This document shows, one piece after another, positions 12,641 to 44,300 of a DNA stretch of 64,000 nt. The notes under the pieces are model-generated. The model worked only from the letters and a program-made list of their open reading frames with translations. It had not been told where the DNA came from and searched no databases. Numbering within the stretch: the first letter of the stretch is position 1; every line of letters starts with the position of its first letter. Source of the stretch: Fragilaria crotonensis (Eukaryota; Bacillariophyta; Fragilariophyceae; Fragilariales; Fragilariaceae). The stretch is taken from positions 1 to 64,000 of the forward strand of contig JAKSYS010000329.1 in NCBI GenBank assembly GCA_022925895.1. Reading direction: 5' to 3'. The translations under genes and the position numbers were made by a program.

Positions 12641-12730
12641 AAGGTTGCCCGTTGTCGAATCTCAAAAATCTCGACCTTGCTGCAGAAGTTGTTCTCGTCC
12701 CTGCCTATTAGTATGCTTCTCCAGCCATCC

Positions 12731-15576: not shown

Positions 15577-15594
15577 TAGATAGTAGTTGCAATA

Positions 15595-15720: not shown

Positions 15721-15724
15721 GTAC

Positions 15725-17374: not shown

Positions 17375-17444
17375 ATTGACTCTACCGGTATAAGTCGCTA
17401 CAGTACGAAAACCCTAATGAACACCTATCACTCTGGTTTCTATT

Positions 17445-18146
17445 TTACAAGTACAAGGGCTTCGCCGGTTCCGCTGCGGCATACATTGTGGAGTAGACCA
17501 TTGTGCCTGCCTTTGTAAGCATGCTATGAGCCGTGCCATCGTCATTCACTTTTGCACCAAGTCTACCTTTTGACTGAATGATCCTCTCTCCGTCCCTTGT
17601 CCATGCAAGTTCCGCCTTGATTAGTTCGCACTCCGTCTCCATCACCATCAGAACCGTCTGGTCCTCGGAAGGCGGATCGAAGCTGCGAAGCTTCCCAGGG
17701 AGCCACACAGTATCATCGGCATTCGTTGCGAGATCCCTGAGCAATGGGATCCAACACGGTGGGTTTTTTCCCAGTGGTCGGGAGATGACGGCTGTCGCCG
17801 TACCAACGTTGGCAGCTCTGACAGTCCATCGCAGCCTCGTGATCTCGGCGCTTCCTACCCCGCGTGCTCCAGCGATCATCGCCTTGATAGCGTCCCAACT
17901 CGCTTTATTCACCTCTTGCACTTTCCCGCCGATGTTTGGTATGATGAAGCCACCCTTCAACTCAGAGGCCATCGCGCGGAAAGGTGACATGGCCATGATC
18001 GCATTCGCATCAGGATCCACCAGCATGACACGTCGCACACCGGCGCAATCTATAAGTTTGCCCGAGCTCCTATCAGTGAGGAGTCCTTTAGGGAAATCAA
18101 CTTGAAGATTGACTTCCACAACGGGCCCTAAGACGTTGACCATCAT
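17445..18146 (-). pseudogene. N-terminal 233-aa copy of the two-repeat protein (inverted, truncated paralogue)
   Basis: Starts MMVNVLGPVVEVNLQVDFPKG and follows the plus-strand gene at 22569-24281 closely to EPAKPLYL, where a TAA stop falls in place of the glycine codon of the full copy (LYLGLKVRHE). Only the first of the two internal repeats is present and the C-terminal membrane segment is missing. The promoter side is conserved too: AAAGCAATCTGATCGTGAAC precedes both start codons. The copies are in opposite orientation 4.4 kb apart, which fits an inverted duplication followed by loss of the 3' part. The open frame over 233 codons could still make a short protein, so the pseudogene label is tentative. 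Confidence 0.7.
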
Positions 18147-18290
18147 TGTTCACGATCAGATTGCTTTGTTTGTCAGGTGAATTTCTTGTAAGGATTTTTT
18201 GTGGCAATTGAAAACTGCAAATGCGAACCTTTCTTGTGACAATCCGAACAATGAAATGCGAACCTTACACCTTTCTTGGAAAGACATTTT
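18147..18290 (-). promoter_or_regulatory. Upstream region shared with the paralogue at 22569
   Basis: The minus strand reads ATTGCCACAAAAAATCC and then AATTCACCTGACAAACAAAG before the ATG, and carries AAGGTTCGCATTT words, the core of the tandem repeat upstream of the full-length copy (21905-22510). Here only about two short copies of that core are left. Confidence 0.5.
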
Positions 18291-21904: not shown

Positions 21905-22510
21905 TACTGCAATCGGTTCGCATTTCGTAGATCGGATTAGCACTTAAAAATGTTCGCAGTCGCATTACGCAGTCTGTCGTCTGCAGTCCGCGGTCAATTC
22001 GACCCACAGATGTATCTGTCAAAGTATGTAAGGTTCGCATTTTGTAGCTCGGATGCCACAAGAAATGTTCCCATTTGCATTTCGCAGTTTGCAGTCCGCA
22101 GTCAATTTGACCCACAGATGTATCTGTCAAAGGTCAAAGTATGTAAGGTTCGCATTTTGTAGCTCGGATGCCACAAGAAATGTTCCCATTTGCTTTTCGC
22201 AGTCAGTATGTAAGGTTCGCATTTTGTAGTTCGGATGCCACACGCAATGTTCGCATTTGCATTTCGCAGTTTGCAGTCCGCAGTCAATTCGACCCACAGA
22301 TGTATCTGTCAAAGTATGTAAGGTTCGCATTTTGTAGTTCGGATGCCTGCCACAAGAAATGTTCCCATTTGCATTTCGCAGTTTGCAGTCCGCAGTCAAT
22401 ATGACCCACAGATGTATCTGTCAAAGTATGTAAGGTTCGCATTTTGTAGTTCGGATGCCACAAGAAGTGTTCGCGATTGCATTTCGCAGTCCGCAGTCAA
22501 TTCGGATTGC
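21905..22510 (+). repeat. ~110-bp tandem repeat array upstream of the 570-aa gene
   Basis: The core AAGGTTCGCATTTTGTAG begins at 22030, 22145, 22212, 22320 and 22432, with a degenerate copy near 21912. Each full unit continues GATGCCACAAGAAATGTTC, CATTTGCATTTCGCAG, GTCCGCAGTCAA and the inverted repeat ACAGATGTATCTGT. The unit at 22145 is shortened to 67 bp. The array ends about 60 bp before the start codon at 22569. It may be a promoter repeat, since the same core, in reduced form, lies upstream of the inverted paralogue. Confidence 0.85.
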
Positions 22511-22568
22511 CACAAAAAACCCTGACAAGAAATTCGACTAACAAACAAAAGCAATCTGATCGTGAACA

Positions 22569-24281
22569 ATGATGGTCAACGTCTTAGGGCCCGTTGTGGA
22601 AGTCAATCTTCGAGTTGGCATCCCTAAAGGACTCCTCGCGGATAGGAGCTCAGACATGCTCATGGGTTGCGCCGGTGTGCGACGTGTCATGCTGGTGGAT
22701 CCTGATGCGAATGCAATCATGGCTATGACACCTTTCCGCGCGATGGCCTCTGAGTTGCAGAACGGCTTCATAAGCCCAAACATCGGAGGGAATGTGCAAG
22801 AGGTGGATACGGCGAAGTGGGATGCTATCAAGGCGATGATTACTGGAGCACGCGGGGTAGGAAGCGCCGAGATCACGAGGCTGCGATGGACTGTCAGAGC
22901 TGCCAACGTTGGTATGGCGACAGCCGTCATCTCCCAACCACTGGGAGAAAACCAACCGTGTTGGATCCCATTGCTCAAGGATCTCACAACCGATGCCGAG
23001 GATACTGTGTGGCTCCCTGGGAAGCTTCGCAGCTTCGATCCGCCTTCCGAGGACCAGACGGTTCTGATGGTGATGGAGACGGAGACCGAATTAATTAAGT
23101 CGGAACTGGCTTGGACAAGGGACGGGGAGAGGATCATTCAGTCTAGAGGTGGACTTGGTGCAAAAGTGAAGGATGATGGCACGGTGCATCTTACTAAGGG
23201 AGGAAAGTTCTACTCCTCAATGTACGCAGCAGCGGAACCGGCAACGCTTTTGTACCTGGGATTGAAAGTCCGCCATGAGGCCCTCTTCGAGGCGTGGCAG
23301 AAAGACACAACGGGAATTACTACGAGCACTCGTAATGGTCAGATCCTGTATGATATTGATTGCCAAGGGCAGATTCAGCGAGATTGGGCCACAGAGTTCT
23401 TCAGGAATCCATCGATGGTGAAAGTGGGAGTGCAGAGAGTAGCCGTTGTTGACAACACAGCTGGAGAGGTTATGGTATGCACACCCATGCGTGCTGCGGC
23501 GTATCTCATCAGGAAGGAAAGGAAAACACCTGACGTCGCTGTTTCGAATTCAAGTCGGGTTGAAGACGTTACCCAAAAAGAGCTGGACATGGCTCTCAAG
23601 TTCCTTCGGAACAAGAATGGAGGAACGATCACCACGGATGCAGATGAACATGCCGGCATTCCTACTCGTCTTCACATCACAGAAAGGGACGCAGATGTTG
23701 ATGAAGTTGTATCGGACTGGGATCTTGTTGGGTATTCAAAGGGCGGTGGTTGGGCAAAGTTTTTCGCCGAAGTCATGACCGAGAAGAATTGGTGTATGGC
23801 CGTTATCCAGGGCCGCACATCCGACAGGAAGAACAGTAATTCCGGATTGCGCTACAACCTTGTTTTCAAGGACACGGAAGCGGAGTTGGTGTTTGGTGAA
23901 CATCGAAACTTCAAACGCGGAGCCCAGGATGACGTTATCGTAGGACTGCAGCTTCGAAGAGGGTACGCCGTTATCCGAGGAATAGTGTTAGAGAATGGTG
24001 AGCAGTCACAGTTCGACCAAATGATTATGCCTCGTGGTCTCCGTGGTGTATTCAACAATGATACTAGAGTTGCCAACCCACTAATTGAGTGGGTAATCAG
24101 ACCCGGAGCGTCTCTGGATCAGCTGCACCTTGTGGAAATACGAAAACGCATGTCATTTCGCGCTTACGTCATAAGCGTTATTCTGTCGGTTTTGTTCCTT
24201 CTATGTTTTCTCCGTTTCATTCCTATTTTCAAACTGATTTCTATGGCTGGGTGCACCGCAATGCTCGGAATAGTAGGTTGA
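22569..24281 (+). CDS. Unrecognised 570-aa protein with internal duplication and C-terminal membrane segment
   Basis: Intact frame of 570 codons from ATG at 22569 (MMVNVLGPVVEV), supported by conservation of the same start and upstream bases in the truncated copy at 18146. Two halves resemble each other: GVRRVMLVDPDANAIMAMTP then FRAMASEL (about residues 36-70) and GVQRVAVVDNTAGEVMVCTP then MRAAAYLIRKE (about 290-325). A motif EDTVWLPGKLRSFD lies near residue 150 and RRGYAVIRGIVLENGEQSQF near 470. The last 40 residues (VISVILSVLFLLCFLRFIPI, then a weaker hydrophobic stretch) form one or two membrane-spanning segments, suggesting a tail-anchored protein. No known family comes to mind and I assign no function. 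Codon use looks ordinary and the frame is free of breaks, so this is a likely real gene, either host or element-borne. Confidence 0.75.
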   Translation: MMVNVLGPVVEVNLRVGIPKGLLADRSSDMLMGCAGVRRVMLVDPDANAIMAMTPFRAMASELQNGFISPNIGGNVQEVDTAKWDAIKAMITGARGVGSAEITRLRWTVRAANVGMATAVISQPLGENQPCWIPLLKDLTTDAEDTVWLPGKLRSFDPPSEDQTVLMVMETETELIKSELAWTRDGERIIQSRGGLGAKVKDDGTVHLTKGGKFYSSMYAAAEPATLLYLGLKVRHEALFEAWQKDTTGITTSTRNGQILYDIDCQGQIQRDWATEFFRNPSMVKVGVQRVAVVDNTAGEVMVCTPMRAAAYLIRKERKTPDVAVSNSSRVEDVTQKELDMALKFLRNKNGGTITTDADEHAGIPTRLHITERDADVDEVVSDWDLVGYSKGGGWAKFFAEVMTEKNWCMAVIQGRTSDRKNSNSGLRYNLVFKDTEAELVFGEHRNFKRGAQDDVIVGLQLRRGYAVIRGIVLENGEQSQFDQMIMPRGLRGVFNNDTRVANPLIEWVIRPGASLDQLHLVEIRKRMSFRAYVISVILSVLFLLCFLRFIPIFKLISMAGCTAMLGIVG

Positions 24282-25012: not shown

Positions 25013-25471
25013 GAAAGCAAAACAATGAGTACACAGGAATGCATTCGGGAAGAACGTGTCAGAGCATCTATCCACGCGCTTGCCTCAAGCCATTATTGTC
25101 ATACTTCAGTATGATATGAGGTACCATTACTATCAATGTACTGTATCTATATGGTACTGTTGCATGGGCATACTGACCGGACTAGGATAGTCTAAAAAGG
25201 GGTGGATCTCCCCACGCCGGTCACAACTTCATCATGGCTTAGAACATTTACCCTCAATTGCATCTTTGCCGGTCTGAGATCGTAAAGGTGAAGAGGGATT
25301 GTTTGTTGCTTTGATACAACAGCACCAACACTTTCTAGCGAACTCGCAGCACATTCGGACACACTTGTTCTTACTTGTTTTGACTTGTTTTGACGATCAT
25401 TGTTGATCATCGTCATTTACGCGAGCCCTCCCTCCTGCCTTACGTATAATCTGCTCCCCGGCAAGTACGTA
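25013..25471. other. Left flank of the large transposon; small minus-strand ORF at 25192-25416
   Basis: A 74-aa frame (25416-25192, MTMINNDRQNKSKQ, ending in VLSHDEVVTGVGRSTPF) is the only candidate. I do not recognise it and cannot tell whether it belongs to the LTR element on its left. The last bases, TACGTA, abut the terminal inverted repeat. Confidence 0.25.
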
Positions 25472-25497
25472 TACATCTAAGGGTGCCAAAACTAAGT
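25472..25497 (+). repeat. Left terminal inverted repeat of the large transposon
   Basis: TACATCTAAGGGTGCCAAAA plus CTAAGT; matches the complement of 37334-37359 with one difference (T for C at position 22). Confidence 0.85.
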
Positions 25498-25539
25498 ACC
25501 ATAGTTGATACAAGAATTTTTTATCATATTTATTGGAAA

Positions 25540-25700
25540 AATTTCAGGATTCCCATATTTAGTTCAGGATTCCTGAAGTTTTTTTCTGGTTTATTTATTT
25601 AGTTCAGGATTCCGACATTTGCTGTTTCCTCATTTTTATGAAGAATTTTTTTTGCTCCTGAACTACTGCAGTATTATTCCTGAGCTTTTTTCTTCATTAT
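25540..25700. repeat. Left subterminal TTCAGGA repeats
   Basis: TTCAGGATTCC occurs at about 25545, 25563 and 25601, and in reverse as TCCTGAA near 25570 and 25655. The matching words on the right side are in 36990-37205. Confidence 0.6.
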
Positions 25701-26349
25701 TTCGATGCACATAAAACACCGAGTACTGTACGTGTTTTGTACGAAATACTGGAGTAGCATGGTGTATCGTGGGTGGACTATTGGTTGTGCCGTACAGTGT
25801 ACAGTATACAGCGGTTTTACAGTGCTGTCAGCTGGGATACTACCGTCGTACTAGCGCAATGGTTCGTTGTTGGTTATACGCTGTACATTGTACGTTGTAC
25901 AAGTAGCTATGGGCGTGTCTGGTGCATGGTGCATGGTGTTCGGTGCCTGCTACAGTACGTTTAGTATGGTGCGGTGGTGTACAGTATGGTAGCTACGGCG
26001 TGGTCTGTGTGTATGGTAGTGTGGTACTGTGTACGGTACTTTCATTACTATAGCGCTGTGTTTTGTGTACTACGGTATGGTGGTAGCGTATAATTTTAGT
26101 ACAGTATTGTATCATGCGAGTACTCCTATGACACTATGCTACGTACTACGTGATCTTGTGTTTTCAACAACAAACCGTAGAATTGTAGGCGATAGTATGT
26201 ACTGATTAATTCTTTGGCACCAATACCAGTGCATGCTGTATATTTCTACAAGGAATTAATTCTTTTTCAGCCACAGTATTGTCTTTAGTAGAATCGTACG
26301 TGATTTTTTTTGCGGGAAGTGTCACATCTCACACTTCGTTCGTTGAGCA
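25701..26349. other. Low-complexity noncoding DNA inside the transposon
   Basis: Rich in GTAC, TACAGT and GGTG words (for example GTACAGTGTACAGTATACAG near 25793). No gene seen. Confidence 0.4.
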
Positions 26350-27310
26350 CTCCACCACTTGGTGTCATGCCCGACACCACATTGATGCTCCATTATTTGG
26401 CATCTTCGCTCCTTCTTCGTCCTTTCCCACCCACAAGACATTGCAGTCTTAAGTGGTAAGACTGCAAATGTGCTTTTTTTCGTGTTGATTGTTGTGTTGA
26501 TTGAATGTTTCCATCATGGTGATGGTCGAATGAGTTTTGAGGTACTCCCGTTGTGCCAGTACCGTTGTCTACGTACGGTGCTCAGGGTGCAGTCAAGTAC
26601 TGGGACGAGTTCGCACGACAGTACCTTGGAGGTTACGGTGATACACTACGTCGCGCCTGTACAGTCGTCTACCTACCGTACTTAGGGTGCTGCCAAGTAC
26701 TGGGAGTACGACAGTACCTTGGAGGCTACGGTAATACACTACGTCGCGCCTGTACCGTGGTCTACGTACCGTACTTATGGTACTGCCAAGTACTGGGAAT
26801 ACGACAGTACCTTGGAGGCTACGGTACAACACTACCTTGTGCATGTACTGTTGTCTACGTACTGTACTCATGTTGCTATCAAGTACTGGGAGTATGACAG
26901 TACCTTGGTGGACCTTCGGTTTATTACAATACTACCTTGTGCCTGCTGTACGGTTGTCGATGTCACAACTTGGTGTCATGCCCAACACCGCATTGAATGT
27001 TTCATTCTGTGCTTGTCCCCTTGCCCTTTGCTTCTTCTTCCTTTCCACTAACAAGGGCACTTAACTGTCGTTCTTGTTCGTGAGTTTTTGATTGTTTTGT
27101 CCTATCAACACAAGAATGTTGTGTTGAATCGTCGTTTCCATCATTGTGAGCAACTGATTGATTTGTTGAGGTACTCCTGTTGTGCCTGTACCATTGTCTA
27201 CGTACTGTACTCATGGTACTGTCAAGTACTGGGACGAGTTCGCACCACGACAGTACCTTGGAGGCTTCCGTACAACATTGTGCTGGTACTGTACTCCAGT
27301 CTTTCTTGTT
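26350..27310 (+). repeat. Minisatellite with ~96-bp units inside a ~610-bp higher-order duplication
   Basis: Units start with GTACCGTTGTCTACGTAC-type words at 26559, 26659, 26752, 26845 and about 26944, and carry CAAGTACTGGGA and ACAGTACCTTGGAGG. A larger unit holding a TTGGTGTCATGCCC-ACACC block, a TTTCCATCAT block and GAGGTACTCC(C/T)GTTGTGCC recurs: 26350-26960, then 26964-27290. In the second only one short unit (about 27190) is retained. Frames through it are open by chance because the unit length is often a multiple of three, and I do not call them genes. Confidence 0.8.
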
Positions 27311-27659
27311 GACGTTGTGTCATTGCACATGATTGTATTTTCCAGCTTTCAATCTCACATCCTCCTCTTCTTCTCCTTTCATAATTAGGATCCTTGTCGA
27401 CAAGTGTTGTGCTTCTCATTTTGTTGTTAATTGAGGGAATAAGTACTTCGTCTTGTGTGCGTGCTTCGATTGAGTTTGTAAGGCAATCTGTCATCTAGAA
27501 TCCAATATTCGGTCATCTGCGAGAGATTCTCATTGATTTGAGTGAATCAAACCAGATTGATCTACCGGTATTGGTTCTTTTGTCAGTTGTCTGTTCGCAT
27601 GCTCAAGAGTTGTATACACGCACACCAGTTGGAGGATTATTCATATTTCAACCAACAAA

Positions 27660-30600
27660 ATGGCAGAGGTTCCATCACTGTCCCCTGTCTCTCGTCAGCA
27701 AGGAGGAGTCCCTATGGATAAGGCGTACCTGTTCCGTGATGGTATGGATGAATTCACACCACCTCCAGGAACAAAGGTCAATAAACAATTCAGATCGCAA
27801 GTTCGAGTCTTTTATCATCACCCGCTCGTGCTGTTTCAGAGTTTCCACTACACATGTTCAGCTCTTGGTTTCAAGACCTCCCGTTGTCCAAGATTATGAC
27901 TCAGAACGAAAGAGAGGACTCCAATGAAATTTGGCAATTCAAGGTAGTTACGTTGTACCCCACACGTGTCCAAACAAACAAAGCTGAGGCGACAAGGTTT
28001 AAGTGGGCGACAGAAGCTGCAAGGCAATTCTACAGCACATCATTCAATTCTACAGAAGCTGATTTGAGCTCTATCGATCGTGCTGTGAATTCTGATCCAT
28101 CAATAATGATTGTGGGACGTCCTCTTGGAAAAGAAGATGACCCCTTCAAGAAATCTGTCATAGGGTGCCAAGACTCTGTTGTTATTGCATGCATTACATT
28201 TCGAAGTGGAATTGGAGATGAAGTTGGTGCGTCGTTGGTGCTTTGGCTGTTGATTGCAGAATCTGAATCACGGAAGCCATCCGGTCTTACATCCTGGAGA
28301 CGGCAAGGGTTTGGACGTCTGATGTTAGTAATGCTCATCAAGCATTCAACTTTTTTATTATTGTCTCACCGTGAGCTGTCACAATGTCAGGAGAGCCTAC
28401 ATGGTGTGGACATCTACTTGCAGTGTCCCCATGACGAGCCAAAGGAATTCTACCAAGCCTGTGGGTTCCGTCAAATCAATCTCCAAGACACAACTGGCAT
28501 TGAGTTTCTTCCCAAGACAATTGCCGACACCTTAATGGACGAGACCACAGGTGGATTTGCATGGATTGTACCAGAGTCTGAGGAGCACTGCATTATCCCT
28601 CTGATGAAACTTTCTTCCGGTTCCCTTTTGAACAGTGCTGCTAACAGTGCTGCTGTCGAGGTTGTTGAAAGCAACAGTGATGTGATCAGTGCAACAAGAA
28701 ATGATGGTTCCCCGCGTGCTGTTGTTGAGTCAGAGGAAGAAAGCAAGATCAATATAGTCGCAAAATCGAGTGGTGGTTCCCCTTCCTCGTGAGCAGTGAT
28801 GTTTTGGAGATTGTGCAGAGCAACAATGAGACAGTCAGTGCACGGAATGATGGTAGCAACACCAGAAAAACATTTGTATGGTGCCAATACCCTTCATCAA
28901 CAATCGATCTCCAAGATGATGTTGCAAGTGGAGCATTGCTGACAAATGCAGATCTGGAAGAGGCATTTACCGGTCTGGACTATTTGAACAACCTTCTTCC
29001 ACCACCATTTGGTGACCTGGTTCTGCCTGACCAGTTGCGTGGTTTTGGAGAAATGGGATCACAGGAAAGGCTTGATCATAGCAAAAGTGGTGGGAAAACT
29101 TGGATGGCCACCCGTGAGCTGCAAATGATGACTTCACTCCTCATGAGGGATGGCAGGTATCACACATCAGTTGCAATCCTGTCTTTTGACGACATGCAGG
29201 TAATTCAAGGTTGCTTTGCACGTCTTCAACGTCATCTATCTGCAAAGAAGTACGAAAACGACTTGATGGTAGCCAATGGAGCCGATCATGCAGAATGTCT
29301 TGCCCTTGTGAAAAAAAGGTATGGAAGTTCTAAGGAAGAACTTTACCAGAAGTATGATGACCAAATGAATCGTGTTGTGAAGGAAGTCCTGTTGTTCTAT
29401 CCAGGGCTTCTGCAGAAAAGGTTGATTGTGTTTCCTACGAATCTCAGCAACGATCATTGGGGGGCAACATTTGTTTTCAATGCTGGAGACGTTGTGGCTG
29501 CCACGGATGATGTATCATGCCTCCGGACATGTTTTTTTCGCTATTGCAGTCTTCATCCCTCCGGCACGAGAAAAATTCCAAACAATGTCGGTGTTGTCTG
29601 GTTCCTGAACCTTGCCTTCAGTTACCAGGAGCAAAGGAAAAACAGTGCAAATGATAGCAGCACTCCAAACAAGATGAAGTGGCTCAGTCCGTTCGGACGA
29701 ACCTTTTTTTTGGGCAAATGAAGGGCACCAATACATTCCCTGCATTGAGGGTGTTGGATAATGATGTTCTTCCCCTGCAAGAAGATGGCCATAGCTGTGG
29801 GATTGGGATTATAGCTGCAATTGCAATAATTCTCCGAGATATCATTGGGACTCAAGATGGAGTTGCAGCGTACAACGAAATGTTTAGACGCGATCGCATG
29901 GAAATCCAGATGTCAACTGATGTGAAATCGAAGGAGCACATTTGCTGTTTTCCACAGGGAATATTCACAAAACTGTTTAAAAGGGATGATTCGGCTTCCA
30001 TTTCCTACTTGCATGCGATGAAAGCACAGTGGTTTTTGCTGTTTGATCGCATTGCAGAATTTCAACACGTCACAGTCCCAAAACGTCAGAATTCAAATCA
30101 TTTGATGGATCCCTGTTACGGAAGTCTGAAGTTGGAACTTCAGACTTTCACGTGGCCCTGGGTGCCAGTACCATCCAATGCCACAGAGGACGACAGTGTT
30201 ACGTTGGAGGATGTTTCTTCCAGGGAGGATGTTTTGCCAAATGCCAATGAACGGAGTTTGCCATCAGAGGAGGATGTTGCCGATTTCAAACCATCTGGAT
30301 CTGCTGATGGACCTGAACAACAGGAAGAAGATATTGATCTCAACGAAGCCTGGTGGAATGATCCTGCTAAGCTTCCCCCGAGCAAGCAGGGTATGGAAAG
30401 GTGGGCCTCCTCGTACGTATGGTTATGGAGACATTCATGTACCTGATGAATGCCCGAAATTACCTTTCGGAGAAAGTAGGTACAAAACATTGGTATCAGA
30501 CAATGAAGTTGAGAAATTTAGAAAAAAAGTGGCGAAAGAAAGGAGATGACGGTGAAGATCGACCAGTGCTTCTTAGGGATGAAGCAGCAATGAACAAATT

Positions 30601-31988
30601 CGTGGAGGACAGATTTTTGTACTGGGGTTGGAGCTCTACCAAAGATCACATGAAGAATGTGGAAAAGAAGCGGGCCGAGATGCAAAGAAAAATTGATGGA
30701 TGTAAGAAGAAAAAGACAAAGGATGATTACAGAGAGCAGTACACGAAAGAAATAAAGTTTATGAAGAAGGAAAGGAAGAAATTCAAAAGGGCATTTGAAT
30801 TGGAATGGACATTTGGCACTGAGGCCATGGTGCATGGCCTCAAGTACAACCCACGTGAAGATACCTTTGTTGCACTTTTGGTTTACAATGTTAAGACAAA
30901 AGAAGGAAAGTTGGAAAAGAAGGAAGAAAAATTGCTGTTTCCAAAGACTGGATCAAGGATGCCGATTATGCAAAGGGGTAATCCAACATGTCATTAACGT
31001 TGGAAACACGGATGGATTTGTACCTGTTCCTGAAGGAAACCATCCTCATTCATACTAAAAGGTACATAAGCTGCGATACGTTCCCCCACAGACACAATGG
31101 GTGTTTGATCCTCAGTCGAAAAGGTCCTTAAGGAGCAACAGTGACTCACCAGGGGGTAAACATATGAAGCAGATACAGGCCCCTGGTTACTGGGAGGTCA
31201 TCTTTCATGGAGAAACACAGCCCATTCGAACTGATGAAGACTTTGTGAAACAATTTAAGACAGGATTCTTGGAGGAGGTCAAGCGTATGAGGTGTGGATT
31301 TGTTGACATACCAGTGGGCGATTTCAAAGAATCACATTTGCATGAATATCCCAAGCTGCAGGTTCCTGAAGCACCCCAGGTCCACTTTGTACAATCCGAA
31401 GGTGAAGATCTTTGTGTTTCAAAGTCATTGGCCAGTGCTTTATATGCAATTGGCTTTGATAATGCTGCCAAATCCATTAACCATTTTGGTGAAAGTCACC
31501 TAAGAGGAGGTACTGTTGATGCCATTCGAAAGGTGGGACAGTTTGCTGAAACTCAGCTGCCTACATGGATCACCCGACAAGTTCTGAAGAGACCACACAT
31601 GTTTGATTGGCAACTCCTTCAAGAACAAATGAAGGACACAATGGTATTGGCTGTGCTCAATGAATCCGATGGAAATGGTTCACATGCAGTTACCATTCAC
31701 AGTGGGTATGTGTATGATGCAAATGAAGTGGTTGCAATTCCTCTCTGCAAGGAGGCCTTGGATTATTGCTGCTCAACCTCAACTGTGAAGAATGAGTTTG
31801 TGAGCTTTCGGAAGGCAACTCTCTTTTTTTATGATGGCCCAGACATCAACAGGAAGGCAAGTTTTACTCTTTGGGTAGATTCAAACAAGCGAAAGCGAGC
31901 CGATGGTGATGGTCCAAAGATTGTGAGGGCTCGGACAGACGATGGCAACATGTTTCCTTTAGGTACTTTGATGCAACAAGCTAGCTAA
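27660..31988 (+). CDS. Transposon gene 1: GNAT + Ulp1-like protease + papain-like protease (multi-frame)
   Basis: Likely start MAEVPSLSPVSRQQGG at 27660. A frame change before about 27900 leads into the GNAT part: SVVIACITF (28175), RRQGFGRLML with the acetyl-CoA loop (about 28300-28330) and EPKEFYQACGFRQ (28436-28475). A spacer with an internal repeat (SARNDGS) follows. The Ulp1/C48 part has NDHWGATFVF with His (about 29450) and QEDGHSCGIGIIAA with the catalytic Cys (29778-29810). A lysine-rich helical region (30500-30800) comes next. The last part (31101-31988) has LCVSKSLASALYAIG (Cys, about 31412) and GSHAVTIHSGYVYDANE (His, about 31680), which looks like a second, papain-like cysteine protease. 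The frame changes about six times. Gene 3 of the same element is spliced, so some may be introns, others decay. Ulp1 proteases are known passengers of Plavaka/Zisupton-type transposons, but this three-enzyme arrangement I do not know. Relative: 1-1435. Confidence 0.6.
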
Positions 31989-34740
31989 GCGAATTTGGAT
32001 GCCCACTCTGTATATGGTTTTGTCTCAAGAACTGTGGAACTGTTGTGTGAGATGGATATAACAAAACAAGGGGCCACGACAGTGTTTCCAGAGACAAGGT
32101 GGTATGTTGGAGACCACTTCCACTCCCTCAACAGTGTTGACTCGTGTTCTTTAATTTCTTCTGTTGTTGATTGAACAACCAGTTGGTATCTCTCGTCCGG
32201 ATCCGCGGGTGAGTCAACAACAACTACAAGAGCCAAACGACAGGGGAAACTTCCCATGTTCCCCAAAGTCAATTATCATCCAGTCATGTATGGGACCATC
32301 GGACTGATAGCAGGGATGACATCGAAAGGTGTGGACATCTCGTTTGTATTCAGTACAAAATGTTATTGAGTCGGATTCCTTAAAGGAATCAAAAAGAAAC
32401 TCAATCAACTCCAGGGGGAAGAGCAAGTAAATCACGGTGAGTTCTGGTGTCCCATTCAATTTTGTACTGAATTTGTTTACTCGATTTGAATCGATAAACA
32501 CAGCCAAATGTTGCTTGTCCGGTGCTCTGAAAGATTCCATTCCTTGTTGTTTCATCATCATGGTGGCTGTCGGGTACATCAGCATCACCATCTGGTTGCT
32601 CCCATATGCGCGTGTGTATGGTGTCGATCATGAAGGAGTACATTAAACGTTGGGCTGCCTGAAGTTCATATGCAGAACCCTCAATTCGCTTCTGTGCCCG
32701 TCTCCCAGGGTGCTTTGCAGCAGGAATTAGAAGTGATTCTGGACGCTGTGCACAAAAGTTCACTGGAGAGCCAAACCGAGACATATCATCCACAATGTGT
32801 AACAACTCATGGAATTTCGAAACTTCCATGCATCCTCGGCATTGCTTTTCTGTCCTTCCTTCCTTATGATGGTTCCCTTTTTCTTACCCTTTTTCTTGTC
32901 ATCCTCCTTTCCCTCAACTTTCAAGGGAATGGACTGTTTGCACATATCCATGAAATTGCGAATGGAATCCTGATGTTTCTTCATTTCATTTGCAACATGT
33001 GCTGGATTTGTAGTCTCCCAGTAATGACTCTGGTTTAGCCAAGCATCGAAACAAAGGAGAGATTCAAGTACTTCAAGGACCTCAGGAACCTTCTTAGTTG
33101 TTCTTTTCTCAAGACATGTTTGGATCATTTGCCATCCTGCTTCATATTGGAAGAGGATGACAAACAAAAAAGAGGCCAACGCGTTCTGATGCAGTTATCT
33201 TTGTCAAATTTGTTACCCCATTGCTGAAATCTGTTGATGGATACTCCTTTCGGTAGGTTTGGCGATGAGACTTGTGAAATGCTATTGCAAGGTCATCAAA
33301 GGCAGCCTTCTTGGATGCTGGAAGACTGTCCAATATAAGTTTTGTTACTTTCTCGATGACACCTTTCGAAATGCATGCATTGTCTCCACAGGAGTGGCCC
33401 CAAAGATTCCACGCTCAGGGTCAGCAAAGGCAATGTGTTCAAATGCATTTTCAAGTTTATGTTGAGACCATCGTTTCCTGAGATCATCATCATTACTCCT
33501 GGCAATGAAACCCATATCCGAGGCTACCAGGTATTTGCAATGGACATCACAGTTCTTCAGATCATCATAATTGACATCACAGCACCGATGAGGGCGTTGG
33601 ATTCCACTGGTGTGAACACCATACCGACCACACAGCATATCTCCTTCTTGCATATCTTGAATGATGAACAACACACATGTGACAATGTCGACACAGATTC
33701 TACCCTTTGGACCAATTGGCAAATGAACACCACACAGTTGTGGTGAACATTTCCGAAAGGTCTCCAATACAGCATCCAGCTCCTTATGATAGATACGAAT
33801 GGCATCGCCCATACACGAAGTGTCTGCTTCTGAGCTGATGAGGACTTCCTCTTTGGGAGAAAGCCATGATAGCCCCATGCCTTGATACTCCTTCTGAATT
33901 TTTCTGTAAAAATGGCTGGAGTGAACATGTAGGGTTTAAGTGAAAAGCGATCATTCCCTGTTACAGAGGTACGATCAATCCATTGGATGATTGGAACAAA
34001 CAATTGCTTCTGAGGATCTGTGATTAATCGATCATACGCCTTGCGATAGACACTCCCGGACAGTGCCTCACCCAAAACATTGCTGCCTTTCAATTTGTGG
34101 TAGGGCTTCAGGGGATCATTGATATCGATGGCAAGGTTTTCTGCAGTCATAATGCTTGGATTTTGCAGCAAACTTAGCAACTGTGAAGCGAAGTCAAAAC
34201 AAATCACATCTGATGGAGAGCCATGATGTACATCCACTCTTCGTACAAAGGGAAGCAGTCTTTTCCCATTACGAACTGAGTTGATCAGGGCATCAACATT
34301 TTTGGCACGCGAGAGTCCACCCACTGGGTTGTAAGAATAATTATCAGCAGATGCAGAGCGTGCCCACTCCAGGACTTGACCAAAAGTGTAGTCGGGTGCA
34401 TTGGCATGGTCCAGGATTTTGAGGAGAGAAACAGTCCACTTCTGATCGGTAGTATACATGAAGTTTGAACGAAATGATGGGGCTTCCACATCTTCATCAA
34501 GTGCAGAATTCGTACAGGTAAGAATGTTTGGGTCATCACTTAACATGGACAAATCATCACTTTTGTTGCAGTCCTCGATGTCCTCACAAGAAGTGCTTTC
34601 AACTTCCACACCATTGCCAGCCGGAAACTGCAGAAGGTTGTCTGTGCCATCAAAATCCATGTGGGGATCATTCACCATATGTCGCCTTAAAGGGCAGGCC
34701 TCTTGTTACTTGTGCATGTGATATTCCCATCCTCATGAAG
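31985..34740 (-). CDS. Transposon gene 2: Plavaka/CACTA-like transposase (multi-frame)
   Basis: Reads leftward from an ATG at 34678 (MVNDPHMDFDGTDN) or slightly upstream. The core is PLKPYHKLKG, then FVPIIQWIDRTSVTGNDRFS (about 34000-33940; first candidate catalytic Asp) and RRSIKAWGYHGFLP, which follows the order of fungal Plavaka transposases (VPIIxxxDKTxLT, then IRRxPSxxAxxLLGYLP). Next come IIQDMQEGDMLCGRYG (about 33655-33605; second Asp) and GIFGATPVETMHAFRKG (about 33410-33355; candidate Glu before the His). The C-terminal part ends with CHPCYQSDGPIHDWMIIDFG and a beta-rich tail, similar to the HxNYRxxxxxYDWV end of such transposases. The reading frame changes about five times over 2.7 kb. 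Introns are likely for some. The stop TAG (31987-31985) overlaps gene 1's stop TAA (31986-31988) tail to tail. Confidence 0.55.
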
Positions 34741-35388
34741 ACGGCGACGGTGTGAAGCAGAAGCCCCATGTGTTGCTGCATGGTGTGATTTCTTCACAAT
34801 GAAATTATAACACCCGATGTTTCTATCAATATGCTGTGTATATGCTGCTTGATTGGAAAAGGGTTTCTTGTTGAAATTCAGGCAGAAGGGGTTTTGACAG
34901 AAGAGCAGGGGTGCCTTTGAGGAAGCAGACGAGGACAACATTTTGAAGAGAAGGTTTTGAAGAAAGGGTTTTGAAGAGGACGAGTGAAGTGAAAATGAGG
35001 TGTTGAAATTGACAGGACACAGATTCACTAAACAGAAGTTCGGGAAAGCGTGCATTCAAATTGTACATTTACTTTCGGTACATTTTTGGTGTATGTAAAG
35101 AATGAAGGGGTGTGGTATGAATTCAAAATTTGAAAACCCTGCATGAATGTAGAACCTACATACCAACTCGGTACTTGGTATGAAATTCAAATGGTGGCAA
35201 AAAGACTATCCCACAAACAGGATTTTCAGTGTTCAAAATTTGGCGCACAATCGGAAAGTTTTTCACACAACAAGGAAGCACCACAAATACAACCATGGCA
35301 TCAATGGCACACCAAACAGCAGCAGGCATGACTGCCTTAAAGCCCAGCTCTAGGAAACAAAGGAGAGACTTCATAAGAGGCGTGAACA

Positions 35389-36797
35389 GTGACCACAGAT
35401 CCCAATGATCTGATTCAAAGTGACAACGAGGAGGAGGAGGAGGAAGAAGTGCCACGGAAAATGGATGCAAAACTAGGACAGAAGCATGCATACGGAAATC
35501 CACCATCCCTACCTTCAACTATTAAAGTCGGGAAATCAAGTGACAGCCAACTAACATCATCGGTTCCAGGGCTAAGCAGCATAGTGGACATGAGCATGAC
35601 GGAAAATACAGAAGAGAATCAAATCAGTGTGATCAAGACTTGCATCAAAAAACACGTGTTCTCTATTTGGAAGTTCTATCAAAAAGACTATCATTCTCAT
35701 TTCAGTGAAGATGAGAAAACACTTTGTGGCTTTATCATGAAGCACACAAACATTCGAGGAACCGAAAACTGGTGGCTTGGGATGCGGAGAATAGTTGTAA
35801 AAACACACTGATCTTCGAACAATGCAATAAAAAACATGCAAACGAAATTCAAAGGTGAGGAATTGAAGTGAGTGTACTTTGCCAAAGCCGAGCATACTCA
35901 CACTCACTTGCATTCAACATCAAACACCTTGCATCCAGAGGATTCACTTCCAATTTAGGAACGTATGAACACAGCCTATACAGTGGAAGCGAGGAAGAAA
36001 CCAGTTACCTCCTCAAGATGAGGGATAATATCTGCTACTATGCCCAAATCATAGACACCTATGCCCCATGCATTGTCGGCAGCAGCAAGTGGAATAACAC
36101 TATCAACATGGAGAACCACTGTGCAACAACTGACAGAAAAGTATGGAGCAAGAAAATCCTGTCCATAAGTGATGAAGCATTCATTTTGCTGTGCCTGATC
36201 AACTATGGGAAGAGGTGGTTCGCGGAATTAGTTAAGACAGAGAAAATGGTAAGTTTATCCGAATGGTTTGTCACAGAACAAACAACAAGAAACTGACTTG
36301 TTTTGTTATCACTTGTTGGAAACAGCGAATTGGTACATGGACTGATGAGGACAACAACAACCTACCCGTAAGTTACACTATGATACTAAATGAAATGAAA
36401 AACCACATCCTAACTTCTGACCAATCTTTGCAATACCATGTTCGCAGCCACCACTTTACACATTCTCCAGGAACAAGGGTGCTCATGATAATGGGGAGGC
36501 TGTGGTTGGTCACAGGTGGGAATGAGGAAATACGATGAATTATACATGGCCATCAAGAATGATAGAAAGAAATCAACCACCCCAACATTCAACCAGGAAC
36601 TACTTAAAATGTTTCTGTCCAGAAGGAAAAAGGAGTCTGGCCGGGGGGTCAGGAAACAATTTGATGACAAGGGTAAGAAACGCCCACACAAGTGCATTGA
36701 TGTATTTGACGAGGACTCTGATGAGGAGGATGATAACTACTCCAGTCATCTTGCTCCTGAACTTGTCTACAGTGAATTGAAAGTGGAGGCAGTTTAG
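35389..36797 (+). CDS. Transposon gene 3: unrecognised accessory protein, spliced
   Basis: First block 35389-35811: an acidic start (EEEEEEV), then NQISVIKTCIKKHVFSIWKF and WWLGMRRIVV. Second block 35868-36248: YYAQIIDTYAPCIVG and ISDEAFILLCLINYGKRWF. A GT-AG intron is clear at 36249-36325 (ATG|GTAAGT ... AACAG|CGA), joining EKM to RIGTWTDEDNNNLP. A second lies at 36368-36447 (CCC|GTAAGT ... CGCAG|CCA), joining NNLP to PLYTFSRNKGAHDNGEAVVG. The last block to 36797 is basic then acidic (VFDEDSDEEDD). One more frame change remains near 36510. The paralogue at 13703-14499 keeps the same blocks, which supports the exon choice. No function can be named. The position beside the right end suggests a role in the element's own movement or control. 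Confidence 0.6.
36249..36325 (+). other. GT-AG intron 1 of transposon gene 3
   Basis: 77 bp, donor GTAAGT, acceptor AACAG. Splicing keeps the frame and restores a continuous protein that matches the paralogue in order. Confidence 0.7.
36368..36447 (+). other. GT-AG intron 2 of transposon gene 3
   Basis: 80 bp, donor GTAAGT, acceptor TTCGCAG. Joined exons encode NNLPPPLYTFSRNKGAHDNG, aligning with GKYTSSVMDHCLYGG in the paralogue. Confidence 0.65.
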
Positions 36798-37333
36798 AAT
36801 AGATCAGACACTTAGTAATGAATAGTAGAATGGTTCATCAAAGCCACACGAATAGGCACAATTAAAACTAATCTCCAACAAAAGTTAAAATGAGCGACAA
36901 TAACATCTATTATATGAACAATGTCAGCTCAGAACTACTGAGGTGATTACTTCATACACACTACACAGCAAACTTCTTCTTTCGAATATCTAATTCAGGA
37001 ATTGAAATTCATGATCACAAATGAAGAAGTGGTATAGTTCATATATTTAGAGTCCAAGAGTTCAGGAATCCCACCCGAGTGTTAGTAAAAATGAGTCAGT
37101 GAAATTCAGGAATTGAAATTTTGGAGCTCAGGAATGCAAAGTATGAGCTCCTATGCAAGAGATGAAAAAGTTCAGGAAACATAAATTTCAGAGTTCAGGA
37201 ATACGAGGAAACCCGCTTCATACACATGATGTACAAGCTCTTTAGTCCTAAGTTTTTACCTATATTTTAGGTAAAAATTATGAACAAAAAATTCTCATAT
37301 CAAAGATAATTGGTTTTTCATATCCAAGAGCCG
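36798..37333. repeat. Right subterminal region with TTCAGGA repeats
   Basis: AT-rich, no gene. TTCAGGAAT occurs at about 36992, 37062, 37104, 37163 (TTCAGGAAA) and 37195, and CTCAGGAAT at about 37130, spaced 30-70 bp. Mirror of the left subterminal zone. Probable transposase binding sites by analogy with CACTA elements. Confidence 0.6.
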
Positions 37334-37359
37334 ACTTGGTTTTGGCACCCTTAGATGTA
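37334..37359 (-). repeat. Right terminal inverted repeat of the large transposon
   Basis: ACTTGG, then TTTTGGCACCCTTAGATGTA; complement of 25472-25497 with one difference. Confidence 0.85.
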
Positions 37360-37444
37360 GACGTAAGGTTCTGGAAAGTGTGGTCTGACAGGTTATGAGC
37401 ATTAATTTTACGCCACATTCCTCCGTGTTGCCCTTCTGACGCGC

Positions 37445-38553
37445 GTGCACACGTCAGGTGCATCCCGGCCCAGCTTAAGTATCCCGGTGCTTCGACGCCC
37501 GCTTCACGCATCTGCCCCTTTTCGACCACTCGAATGTCTGTGTTGTTATCACAGTGGATATTCAGGGCTGTCCCTTGGCGGAGATCCCGCTCACCAAGCT
37601 CTTCGATGTTCCATCCTCGACCCACCGCGATACTTCTATCACGATACCATCCGCGAGTCCGTCGCCCTCCAACTTGAGGACACGCCCTGGCTTCGTCGTG
37701 CCGACGACGCTCGGCGTCTCATCCACGATGCTGGTTTTGGCATGATGTACCATGCCCGGGATCGCACGTCGATCATCACGCTTCGCAAGCCTGCGCTCCA
37801 GCGGTTGATTCTCCAGTGCCTTCAGGAACGTCCCCGCCCATCCAGTACCATACATGTCCACGTTCTGATCCGCTTTTTATTGCCTGACGTCGACATTCCG
37901 AAGCCGCCCCAGACACCTCTCACGTCCGACAGTGAACGTGACAGCCGCTCCCGCTCCTCCCAAGGACTCCCGTCTGAAATACGCACCGTCGCTTCCGAGT
38001 CGTCTGCGGTTCCCGCGTCCGGCACCTTCGGGCCTGTCGCGGCCGCGTAGGTCGTCCCTGACGTCGCTACCCCTCCGACGCCCACGGATCCCCTTCCTGC
38101 TGCCGCTGTGCCTTCTACTTTTCGTGGCAACCCCGTGGATATCGGGACCGTCAACGATCGCGGTACCCCTTCGGACCACTACCAGACTCCGACGGAAGAC
38201 GCCCCGCCTCACTCGGCGGCCCGTACGATGTTCGACTCTGGCACCACGGCGCGATCCCGTGCGCTTGTTCGCAAGCCGACTCGGAAATCATCCGTTCTCG
38301 GCTGAAGTCACCTTCGGCGCAGAGACTTTCGAGGAATACATGCCGCAGTTCATGTATGCGGAAGTCAAATTCAAGGACTTTTGCAAGGCTGTTATCCCGA
38401 AGTTTGACTCCCAACGACAGGATTCTTTCCTTCACTGGTACAAGCTCTTCTGCTCCACATGCTTGCAATGGGGCGTCTGGTGTCCTCCCTACGAATCCGC
38501 CCAAGAGGATATGGTTCATGGCGCTTACACATTTTTCAGCACAAATTTAGCGT
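37445..38553 (+). mobile_element. GC-rich gag-like fossil of an unplaced retroelement
   Basis: Noticeably GC-richer than either neighbour. Frames carry YFYHDTIRESVALQLEDTPW and, near the end, a helical segment with CKAVIPKFDSQRQDSFLHWY and CSTCLQWGVWCPPYESAQ, which looks like a capsid-type gag domain. Family not identified. Broken, a few breaks, no terminal repeats seen. The long LINE begins directly at its right edge, so the LINE inserted into it. Confidence 0.35.
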
Positions 38554-38619: not shown

Positions 38620-41347
38620 ATGACCGAAGGCCCTCGTCCACCACCACCGTCTCCCAAGGCAACTCTCCCTACTATCTCCGACATTCGTTTTGGCTTCCTT
38701 ACCCAGGATTGGCTCAATCCACATGAATCCATTTTTTAATTCGTTGAAAACGGCAGAAGAACAGTACAGACTTCTTGCCGACGATGACGCCTATCGTCAA
38801 ACCGTGTCTCCAACTACATGGTCTCGATTTGTCCATCTCGGTTGCCCTACAACCACCGGTTTCCATTTTGACAAAATTTGGAATAACTTCGACTCTGACC
38901 CGTCTCTCCTCTACCAACTGATCTGGTATACATACCTCTACTATGTCGACCGAGAACTTGAAATTCCCATGAAGCTTGAACACTGGGCCACCACAGTCGT
39001 TCAACCTTATCTTGCTAGTCATTCACCACAGACGCTCTTGGTTGACACACTACAGACTACGTGGTCAATGATTGAAAACAAACATGAACCTTGGATTCAC
39101 GTCGGAAGCAACAAAAGACCAGCAAGTACGATGCAGGAGAAATCAGGCAAAGTTATCGACAGACTTGAGAGCAACCGCACTCCTGTTCAACCAAAACCTA
39201 CCCTGCCAACCAATATCCCTCCCATCCCTGAAGAAAGTGAAGACGACCCCGAATTGGAAAAAACTCCAACAACCGACAATATTTCGCAAACATCATCTGA
39301 TGATGCTGAGCAATCTGCTCTCATCCCTAATCTCAAAGTGTCTATGAACGATGGCACCCACAGAGTAACCTTTCGTATGAAGCAAAAAATCGATGTGAAC
39401 AACATCGAGAAGGCAACAACTGAGATCCACCACACCATTCAAGAATTACTAGCAGCCGTTTTCTCTGAAGACGACGGATATATGTATCGCTGGTCAAGAG
39501 ACGAACTGACTGATCCGAAAGTAGTTTCTGACATGTCCTTATCACAACTTCGTTCATATATGCCAAAGATCAACATCATGCCTACTCAAGCAATGGTCAT
39601 CTTCTCAGTAAGATTTGGTTTCACTGATCTTAATCCAACTAACTGGAGAAATAAGATCTTGACAAAAGAGATTCTACAAGATTTTCAGACGACAATATCG
39701 ACCTCAAATTCGAAGAGCACTAGCGGAAGATTGGTTGTGGCAGGTTACGTCCTACTGAAGTCTCCGAACTTGACTCACAGAATCAGGTATCTCCAAAGTC
39801 TTCGGAGCAACCTTCCGGAAAATACCCCAGGCTTTGACATTCTTCTCCATCGTCGCACCCCAACAGATCAAAAGATAGACCATCTCGCGATTCAATGCGG
39901 TGAAAATCACGTTCATCCTCTCAGTAATGCACTTCTCAATGTTCTTGACGGGAAAAAAGCAGGAGTATATGTTCCACGTTTCGCGTTTTCCACTATGACA
40001 ACGACAGAAGTATCTGACATTTTCCTGAAACATGACAACTATGTCAAAACGCAAAAAATGATTCCATTATCTCCCTTTATCACTAACTTGGATACCGTTC
40101 GATGTGAGCACAGAAGTACCCCAATTGAACGGACGACAAGACAATGGGCATATTCCTTGAATACAGAAGATGGTAAGAGCATGAAATGCGACGTCGTCAA
40201 CGGAGGTTATGATCAGAAGGCGTATATTCTCGTTCCACCACAGCACGAAGAAATGGCAAGAAGCGCGCTCGAAGAATATAAGACAATGATTTTCCCATTT
40301 GCGCAACGCGAAGCTAGGTTCCGTGAAAGCATTGGCCCGCCTTCAGTTATCCTTTTTTCAACAAAGATTAAGGCAAGTCTTGAAGTCTTTGATTCCATCT
40401 CTTCTTCCGAGTTCTGGCAGAAAGCACCAAAAACAGTAAGACATGAAAATTCGGAGCACACACAGGATGAACAGAGCTACGAGGAACATAGTTCAATGTC
40501 ATCATCAAACACAAACAAATGGTCAAAAGCACCGACAAAGGATAAATCCAGGTCAAGCTTCATCAACAGTCAAAGCCGACAACTATCTCCACAAGACAAC
40601 GGAAACAAAGACACGCAGTTAGAGGGATTGACAACCGCAACAAACTCGACAAAATCTGGATTCACTTCTGCAATGGAATCTGGATTTCAATCACGGTTCC
40701 GTGAACTAGAGGCACTGATAAAAATGCAACAAGAGGAAATTGAGAAGTCGGCAACATTGACCACCAAAAGTAATCGACAAATGGCACAGCAATTGAAACG
40801 GCTGGATTCAGTAGATGATAGGTTATTGAAGCAGGAGGAAACATTTGTCGATCTCGAAGACAAGATGGTTAAGTCCCTGGACAGACAACTAGATCTCGGA
40901 ACAAATATGCTCCAAATGCGCGATCAATTTCAGCAACAGTTGGATATGTTAATGACGGCAGTCACGAACCTAGCAGAACACAGGGCAGCGATACCTACTG
41001 CGAGACAATTAACGACAGTCACAGACATGGATGCTATTGATCATCACTCGACTAAGTCCGCGTCCACATCGTCCCAAAAAACCGAGCACAGCGGATCTCA
41101 GGGGAAAGTTCACTCTCCAGAAAAGAAAAAGCAACGAGCTACTTCAGATGATGTTTTCTTCTCTCCAACAAATTCCTCAGACGATACCTCTATGCGCTCC
41201 GAAGATGGTTCAAAAGAAAACACTAGTTCACATCAATCAACAACCTCGTATGATTCCCACATTTCGATGGAAAATCTGGAAGAAATATCCACTACCTTGG
41301 AGTCACGATACAAAGAAAACGCTCCAGGAAGTGGGCATGAGCCATGA
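38620..41347 (+). pseudogene. LINE ORF1 (nucleic acid-binding, coiled coil)
   Basis: The likely true start is ATG at 38620 (MTEGPRPPPPSPKATLPT), in a frame that closes near 38740. The remaining 885-codon frame (38690-41347) continues the same protein, so one frameshift separates them. The N-terminal domain (TWSRFVHLG...YVDRELEIPMKLEHWATTVV) matches ORF1 of the LINE at 54049. A middle DGTHRVTFRMK block is conserved too. Residues about 665-770 (LIKMQQEEIEKSATL ... MLQMRDQFQQQLDMLMTAV) form a coiled coil, usual for ORF1 trimers. The C-terminus is Ser/Thr-rich and ends at the ATGA overlap with ORF2. Confidence 0.7.
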
Positions 41348-44300
41348 GTCGAAATAAAAGCAGAAACCACATGTTCTCATCTTCAAAAGGCCTGAAGACA
41401 AATAGTGCAAATCACCACATAGTCCCAATTGAATTAACAAACCCATATCACAATTATGGATTCGGAAAACGAAGCGACAGAGAAGCGGAAACGGCTGACC
41501 CGGCACAAAAGCAAAAGCATGGCACAACACGTTTACCAACGTCACATAAGCTGCTCACTCCAAAACAGCGAATTGGACGTAAGATCTGGGAGAAGCCAAT
41601 CGACCCTGACCCGACAAGAAGCTTTGGGGATACAATATATGAAAAATCATCGGACTCGTTAAGGATCTACTTCCAAAATGTCAAGGGTCTAACCTACTCG
41701 ACTGGTCTAGAGGACTATTACTATTATGTGCAGAGTCTGACCGCTCTCCACATTGATATAGCAGGATTATCGGAGACCAATACGGCATGGCAGCACCTAC
41801 ACCTACAAGCGGATTTTCGAAGTCAAATACGAAAACACTACCGTCAAAGCAGGGTTTCTTTTGGTTTTCCGTCTTCAGACATTGATAAATGTTCAGACAG
41901 CGAAACCTATCAAGCAGGAGGAAATTTGACAATGGTCGTCGGAAACATCACATCTAGCAGCTTCTCGGAAGGATGTTTCGATCCTACTGGCCTGGGTAGA
42001 TGGAGCGGGTTGCAATTCAGAGGAAAAGATGGTTTTAAACTCACAGCAATAACAGCGTACAGAACATGCTCGGGCAACATCCGGACTTCTCCTCTGGGAA
42101 GCACATACAGCAGAGAATATAATTTCTTCAGGAGCCAAGGTCAGCAGTCCCCGAATCCACGTCTACTATTCATTCGACAACTGGAAACTCAAATACGACA
42201 GCTACAACGGGAAGGAAATGCAATTCTCCTTATGTTAGACGCAAACGCTGACTTCAGAGATACAAATTTTATGGATATGATCTCTGCGTGCGACTTACAT
42301 GATCTCCATCAATCTAACCCACCTCAATCAACATATATAGGTTCTGCCAAGAGAAGGATTGATTATATGTTTGGATGTAATAGCATCAAAGATGCCGTCA
42401 CCCGTGCAGGGGCACTTTCATATACGGAAGGCCCACAATCGGACCATCGCGGTTTGTTCGTCGATATCAAGATTCCAGAGTTAGGGAGCCTGCTACAAGC
42501 CAACCCGTTAGCAAACAAATCAAATCGTTTCTTATACACGGGAAATCCAGAGCTGGTTGAAGCATTTATTAAAAGCGTAAAAAAATACTACGCCGAACAT
42601 CGAATGATACAGCGTATTGAAGAGTTATTCACCAACCAAAGCACAATGACCCGAGACGAAATAATGTCATGCTTAATCAAGTGGGATCAGGATCAAGGTA
42701 GAGCTATGCACATGGCTGAAGATAAACTCAGGGTTCCATCGAAGAAATATTCATGGTCTCCCAAACTGCGAAACGCGGCTATAATTCGACGATATTGGAT
42801 ACTAGTCTTCGGGAAGTAAGAGAACAGCTGAACTACGAGAATACTTTTCTCAGATGGCAACGACAAATTCAAGCAGGCGACAAATCGTTCACTCTCCCAT
42901 TTTTGAAAACTCCGCTTGATCAGGCTGAAATAAGTAAACAGCTGACAAGGTCAACAAGATCATTTCGAAAAATCCAACGTGATTCCATAGAACTCCGCCA
43001 ACGTTCATACGAACAATTACTGGCTGATTATATGTCGGACGAAAACCCGAAGACTTTAAAGGAGTCCCAAAGAAAGTACAAAAACGTTCAACGGACAATT
43101 GATAGTGAAACTAGCAAAGCAACGTTTGGAAACCTTCGGAATGTCGTGAAGCCCACTTCGACCTCCGCATTATCTCAACTGGAGATTCCAAGACCGAAAG
43201 GAGATACACCGACAGTGCCGGGAGACAATATACAGCAAATTCTGAACAACACGGATTCCGAGGACCTATTATGGGATGTCGTAATTGACCGATCTGATAT
43301 AGAACGCCACTTGGTCACATACAATCGCGAAGCATTTCGAGCAGCTGCCAAATCTCCCTGTGGTCATGGTATTATATACAATGCAATAACTTTTTCCAGT
43401 CTATCTTCCCAAGCATCGAGGCTTTTAGAAGGACACATACCCAAGGAGTGGTACGGCAACGACAGAGTACTAAAGGAATTCCTAGCGTCTTTCGCGATGC
43501 CGCCCCAAGTCCTCAGCAAAGAAGAGATATCGACCGATATATCGGAAGACGATGTGAAAAAAGGATTCACACACTGGAGAGAAACAACAACGACCTCTCC
43601 TTCAGGCCGCCACTTAGGGCACTACAAGGCACTAATACAGGATCCAGTTCTACTTCGGTGTCTCTCACTCTTCCTACAAATTGCATTAAAACACGGCATT
43701 GCAATCCCGAGATGGTGTAAAGCTACAAACGTCATGATCGAAAAAGATCCAGGCCGCCCAAAAATCAACAGACTGAGAATAATCCATTTGTTTGAAGCCG
43801 ATTTCAATTTCATATTGAAACTGATGTGGGGTCATCGGCTAGTCAGACGAGCAACGGAACTTGACATTCTTCATTCCGGGCAGCACGGGACAATCCCTGG
43901 TCGATCTGCAATAGATCCAATTATGCTGACACAACTCACAACAGACATTATACGAGTGCAACGGACCAACATGATCAGATTTGATAATGACGCCTCCGCC
44001 TGTTATGATAGGATAATTGTCGCCCTCGGCATGCTGGCGGCAACGAGGTGCGGGATGCCTGAAAACGCCATCAGCACGCACGCTAAAGCTCTGGAATTGA
44101 TGCAATATACCGTCAAGACAGTATATGGTATCTCAGAAGAAAACTATTGTGGTACCGAGTTCGAACCTCTTTTTGGAACCGATCAGGGCAGTGGTGCCTC
44201 GCCGGCTGTTTGGCTCACATTGGTTGTGATACTTTTACACACCTTAGACAGATTGATACCAGAAAGGATGGCCATTGCTTCACCAAACGGGCAAATCCAT

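Follow-up and report, generated by a model that had tools for sequence, protein, structure and literature searches.

A probable Plavaka-lineage DNA transposon of about 11.9 kb with three broken gene blocks in the diatom Fragilaria crotonensis

Termini, repeats and gene blocks at the locus

The window analysed here, a stretch of 64,000 nucleotides from the diatom Fragilaria crotonensis (GenBank assembly GCA_022925895.1, contig JAKSYS010000329.1, positions 1 to 64,000 of the forward strand), holds between 25474 and 37357 an element bounded by inverted repeats, with further short repeats inside both ends and three blocks of broken genes between them: a left plus-strand block (gene A), a minus-strand transposase gene convergent with it, and a right plus-strand block (gene C). 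We consider it very likely that this is a cut-and-paste DNA transposon of about 11.9 kb belonging to the Plavaka lineage of the EnSpm/CACTA group and now probably decayed. The features of the locus, with the evidence for each in brackets, are as follows.

25474..37357, no strand: whole element at its likeliest edges, CATCTAAGG...CCTTAGATG (inverted repeat at the termini, TA on each flank; one copy)
25472..25473, no strand: left TA of the putative 2-bp target duplication (flank comparison)
37358..37359, no strand: right TA of the putative 2-bp target duplication (flank comparison)
25474..25497, plus: left terminal inverted repeat (inverted-pair search)
37334..37357, minus: right terminal inverted repeat (inverted-pair search)
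25505..25522, plus: second inverted block, left arm (inverted pair I10)
37286..37303, minus: second inverted block, right arm (inverted pair I10)
25543..25683, both strands: left subterminal TCAGGA repeats, three per strand (motif count)
36994..37200, plus: right subterminal TCAGGA repeats, six, all on the plus strand (motif count)
32021..34941, minus: transposase gene, eight frame segments, N-terminal C2H2-like finger (Plavaka PF18759 on the read-through)
27896..28789, plus: gene A, first part, GNAT acetyltransferase-like (Acetyltransf_7, E 0.0042; RRQGFGR and FYQACGF)
28897..30422, plus: gene A, middle, Ulp1-like cysteine protease region (H-W...Q-x5-C-G spacing; frame change at 29703/29706)
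30371..30994, plus: gene A, lysine-rich region (open frame; no Pfam match above cut-off)
31059..31985, plus: gene A, C-terminal domain, possibly a second cysteine protease (open frame)
35386..36794, plus: gene C, accessory protein, related to 13703-14212 (minus) of the window (local alignment, BLASTP)
26615..26908, no strand: tandem repeat of a 93-bp unit (3.2 copies), non-coding left part of the element (repeat search)

The left and right arms of the terminal pair (25466-25497 and 37334-37365) match in inverted orientation at 30 of 32 nucleotides (94% complementary) around an exact core of 21 nt, TACATCTAAGGGTGCCAAAAC. The original prediction had named inverted termini of 26 bp, a second inverted block behind them and TTCAGGA-type subterminal repeats on both sides, and all three are borne out: the termini agree at 25 of 26 positions (25472-25497 and 37334-37359), the second block extends over 18 nt at 89%, and TCAGGA clusters beyond chance at each end, with six sites (counting either strand) in the first 250 bp, six in the last 400 bp and nine in the 11,234 bp between, a count of six never arising when either end was shuffled 2000 times. 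In 40 shuffled versions of the window (dinucleotide shuffling), exact inverted pairs measured 14-16 nt at their longest, against 21 nt for the terminal core; exact inverted pairs longer than this core, up to 84 nt, exist elsewhere in the window. Of the 38 inverted pairs between 25400 and 37450, the 25 longest include no other that equals the terminal pair in length and match. The 16-nt terminal motif, with up to three mismatches allowed, has two sites in the window, both exact and one at each end of the element; by a weaker and looser test, two matches at this tolerance were also present in 8 of 100 shuffles.

Read as 25474-37357, the element starts CATCTAAGGGTGCC, closes with its inverse and has TA on each flank, and these are most likely its edges, flanked by a TA duplication. 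We prefer them because Kojima 2025 (PMC12730594; cited, like all papers below, from excerpts of its text) gives CA...TG ends for most of the group and, for PlavakaB, CATCA...TGATG ends with a duplication of 2-3 bp. The edges of the original prediction, 25472 and 37359, each lie 2 bp further out, and the ends it gave, TACATC...GATGTA, probably take in the duplicated TA.

Assignment of the transposase and of the element

The profile match makes the minus-strand gene (34941-32021) a transposase of the Plavaka family (PF18759), in our reading a single gene broken into eight frame segments. The read-through, in which these segments were joined with an X at each frame change, scored 33.3 bits against the Pfam profile (cut-off 26.3 bits), residues 271-521 covering profile positions 72-314 of 325. 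Protein scans of IMG/VR yielded one relative of the transposase, on a contig here called L001, which is 46% identical over 334 amino acids and scored 33.7 bits against the same profile in one frame. No Pfam family other than Plavaka matched the read-through or L001 at an expectation value (E) up to 5, and a C2H2-like finger, recognised by eye, stands at the N-terminus of both proteins. Together with the ends and the subterminal repeats that enclose it, the PF18759 transposase lends good support to the earlier claim of one coherent Plavaka/CACTA-group element, and its sole Pfam match speaks against the KDZ alternative raised alongside that claim. Membership of KDZ is not supported by the target duplication either, for which 7-8 bp would be expected (7 bp in Kyakuja and 8 bp in Zisupton; PMC12730594) and the longest found is 5 bp; the same paper groups Plavaka with EnSpm/CACTA and not with KDZ.

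An EnSpm/CACTA element outside the Plavaka lineage is unlikely. Plavaka and EnSpm transposases are related, and three EnSpm families of Puccinia are Plavaka-like as well (PMC12730594), which would favour such an assignment; the only Pfam match is nevertheless to Plavaka, and the element begins CATCT or TACATC, in contrast with the CAC...GTG ends and 3-bp duplication given for EnSpm (PMC12730594). Classical CACTA/EnSpm ends were tried and set aside on the same first bases, and 3 bp was the longest identical flank at 0 of 16 symmetric edges. With CATCT...AGATG and TA, the ends are a near fit to PlavakaB, subject to the ambiguity of the edge; PlavakaA is described with TGT...ACA ends and a 2-bp duplication (PMC12730594). 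We regard it as very unlikely that the ends belong to a non-autonomous or composite insertion between which the transposase and the other genes are remains of separate nested elements. The window is crowded enough to suggest this, with a Harbinger-type transposase at 15129-15491, retroelement-like ORFs (open reading frames) at 38624-46313 and split repeats at 46575-53907, and a relative of gene C sits outside the element; set against it are the lack of a rival to the terminal pair among the inverted pairs of 25400-37450 and the resemblance of the ends to the published PlavakaB type, in agreement with the transposase between them.

Several observations weigh against a Plavaka element at this locus. 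The longest unbroken piece of the transposase scored 21.4 bits against PF18759, under the cut-off, and four other pieces, from the transposase strand or the genes, gave sub-threshold Pfam matches or none. Between the second D and the last E, transposases of the Plavaka/EnSpm/Transib group are reported to carry C(2)C and H(3-4)H motifs; the first reads C-R-A-C in L001 and H-R-C-C in the window transposase, and the second was not recognised at the expected place in the window transposase, its catalytic residues not having been mapped on a reference alignment. L001 is without the 16-nt end of the element, up to three mismatches being allowed. The target duplication is ambiguous: by the edge chosen it reads AG, TA, CG, AT or ACGT (25471-37360), or, where the two ends are uneven, CGTA or ACGTA (25472-37360), and the flanks TACGT / ACGTA, being themselves an inverted pair, make the choice of edge uncertain. 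The element is, moreover, known from one copy only.

Other database scans returned little. The 21-nt end matched 0 stretches of IMG/VR, and a 14-nt end matched 73, the best of them agreeing at 25 of 40 bases, 14 of which are the motif itself, a match that looks like chance. Protein scans of IMG/VR gave no relative for three pieces of gene A or for the ORF related to gene C, a scan of GTDB genomes matched 31 stretches, none of them a relative, the longest transposase piece had no match in phage and plasmid records, and sequence searches of solved structures returned nothing at E below 0.6. On L001 itself, within 3075-7384, a DDE_Tnp_1_7 transposase (Pfam, 140.7 bits), which we take to be of piggyBac type, lies directly upstream of the Plavaka relative; judging from its ORFs, the contig seems to join eukaryotic DNA to phage-like DNA just after 7384.

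State of the copy and its accessory genes

The three gene blocks named in the original prediction are present, each split over several frames, a break that the prediction did not mention. Seven breaks separate the eight segments of the transposase gene, and gene A, if 27896-31985 is one gene as we infer, has about five frame changes plus an in-frame stop at 31056-31058. Frame changes run through all three blocks, so the copy is probably no longer active, and decay is the more likely cause. It could instead be that the element is intact in the organism and that assembly indels created the frame changes, an explanation we find unlikely. It arises because some changes fall at homopolymers, for example at T runs near 29704 and 33168, and because the neighbouring retroelement also has two long ORFs (41341-42819 and 42726-46313) that overlap but differ in frame; elsewhere in the window, nevertheless, reading frames as long as 707, 907 and 1195 amino acids are uninterrupted, and an in-frame stop accompanies the frame changes of gene A. 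Introns or programmed frameshifts were considered too, and by eye introns could lie at the first break of the transposase and at two stretches of gene C with GT...AG. Decay or assembly error is likelier than either, because L001 keeps to one frame where it aligns with the first and second of the seven transposase breaks.

The 'cargo enzymes' of the original prediction are suggested by short motifs and a sub-threshold match. The first part of gene A scored 17.9 bits against Acetyltransf_7, where the cut-off of the GNAT profile is 27, and contains the stretches RRQGFGR and FYQACGF, which we take to be GNAT-like. In the middle part, the H-W...Q-x5-C-G spacing resembles the one in Ulp1-type proteases; the pattern was chosen post hoc and was also present in 13 of 5000 shuffles. 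For this putative Ulp1 (C48) protease Pfam gave no match, neither with the read-through nor with its core, profile searches found no family for the C-terminal domain, and single-sequence structure models were unusable, with a mean predicted local distance difference test score (pLDDT) of 33.5 for the GNAT-like piece and 37.7 for the C-terminal domain. The acetyltransferase-like, Ulp1-like and second-protease assignments are offered as suggestions.

Gene C has a relative in the window. Two of its pieces, taken together, aligned to the minus-strand ORF at 13703-14212 with a local score of 98, compared with 55 for the best of 2000 shuffles and 56 for the next-best ORF (422 window ORFs of at least 60 amino acids were compared, leaving out those starting within 35300-36900). 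Single BLASTP comparisons of its pieces with this ORF gave E values of 9e-7 and 5e-5, and its last piece, searched against the window, gave E 0.006. The ORF lies 21 kb from gene C and about 1 kb from the Harbinger-type transposase fragment at 15129-15491 (Pfam Plant_tran, 85.6 bits). Only four inverted pairs, of at most 20 nt, were found in 11800-17400, leaving a common element for the ORF and the Harbinger-type fragment unsupported.

Elsewhere in the window, three long ORFs to the right of the element (38624-46313), apparently one retroelement, had no Pfam match at E 0.01. Beyond them lie split repeats, in which 46781-47074 equals 53614-53907 (294 nt, 100%) and 46575-46768 equals 47073-47266 (194 nt, 100%); the whole, 46575-53907, looks like a recent DIRS-type retroelement from this arrangement, and the ORF at 47302-48648 within it had no Pfam match. 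Left of the element, a gene region is present twice in direct orientation, at 5057-7276 and 7597-9849 (66.6% identity over 2.3 kb), and a DEAD helicase domain at 4290-5072 adjoins the first copy. An ORF family is present in inverted copies at 17448-18269 and 22429-23258 (86.5% identical), and the ORF at 22566-24281 had no Pfam match.

Proposed activity and comparison with known systems

As sequenced, the copy would produce no full-length transposase and would be mobile only with transposase supplied from elsewhere. An intact sister transposase may have attached to the inverted ends and to the TTCAGGA repeats inside them, used its DDE active site to excise the element and inserted it at a TA target, leaving the TA copies. 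Gene C might help in DNA binding or in the assembly of the complex, and gene A, being acetyltransferase-like and Ulp1-like, could act on host or transposase proteins. Ulp1 and OTU domains borne by transposons have been proposed to be active in transposition, for example via DNA repair factors (PMC2836005), and gene A could have a role of this kind if the protease reading is right. We raise, as a tentative possibility, a Plavaka lineage in which one gene encodes an enzyme of several domains (an acetyltransferase, an Ulp1-like protease and a further protease-like domain) and an accessory gene has been exchanged between the lineage and Harbinger-type elements within one genome; if true, this would amount to a helper module common to different transposon superfamilies. 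Whether helper genes cross superfamilies could be tested on the accessory gene common to the element and to the locus near the Harbinger-type fragment.

Plavaka transposons are best described in fungi. The element resembles PlavakaB of Agaricomycotina (PMC12730594) in its PF18759-type transposase (by Pfam name) and, at the likeliest edges, in its CATC-type ends and its proposed short target duplication, and some PlavakaB families carry extra genes, as it does. Fungal Plavaka elements with TET/JBP genes have been described (PMC12730594); in contrast, a TET/JBP-type match was not found among the pieces of the window element scanned, and the extras here are the GNAT-like/Ulp1-like gene and the accessory gene. 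Plavaka elements outside fungi are already published: the green alga Auxenochlorella is reported to have EnSpm-Plavaka (PMC12633428), and in Amoebidium giant repeats of up to 50 kb have a flanking Plavaka transposase and other genes nearby (PMC11244446). Both are likened to our element by transposase type alone, and the genes named in the available text on Amoebidium are tyrosine recombinases, not those of the window element. The element joins these non-fungal cases as a full-length candidate whose ends are present. The literature matches listed included no account of a Plavaka element from diatoms, most subscription papers falling outside the coverage; EnSpm is listed for the diatom Cyclotella cryptica (PMC7466962).

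In size, accessory genes and broken transposase, the element also recalls the giant EnSpm/KDZ/Sola-1 elements of Ectocarpus, which exceed 10 kb, carry accessory genes and frequently have a transposase predicted to be pseudogenized (PMC12477816). The ends and transposase of the window element nevertheless fit Plavaka better, a name absent from the main text of that paper. With respect to cargo, no transposon combining acetyltransferase (GNAT) and Ulp1 cargo appeared by title among the best 8 of 18 literature matches, and a search for a KDZ transposon with an Ulp1 protease gave no literature match. The element may be a case of transposons carrying protein-modifying enzymes, and the DNA transposons Ginger1 and Mutator, which have Ulp1 domains (PMC2836005), would be its counterparts in bearing an Ulp1-type protease domain, here putative. 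Both differ in their transposase, and Ginger1 also in the placing of the domain, which lies within the transposase there and, as a putative Ulp1-like region, in a separate convergent gene here.

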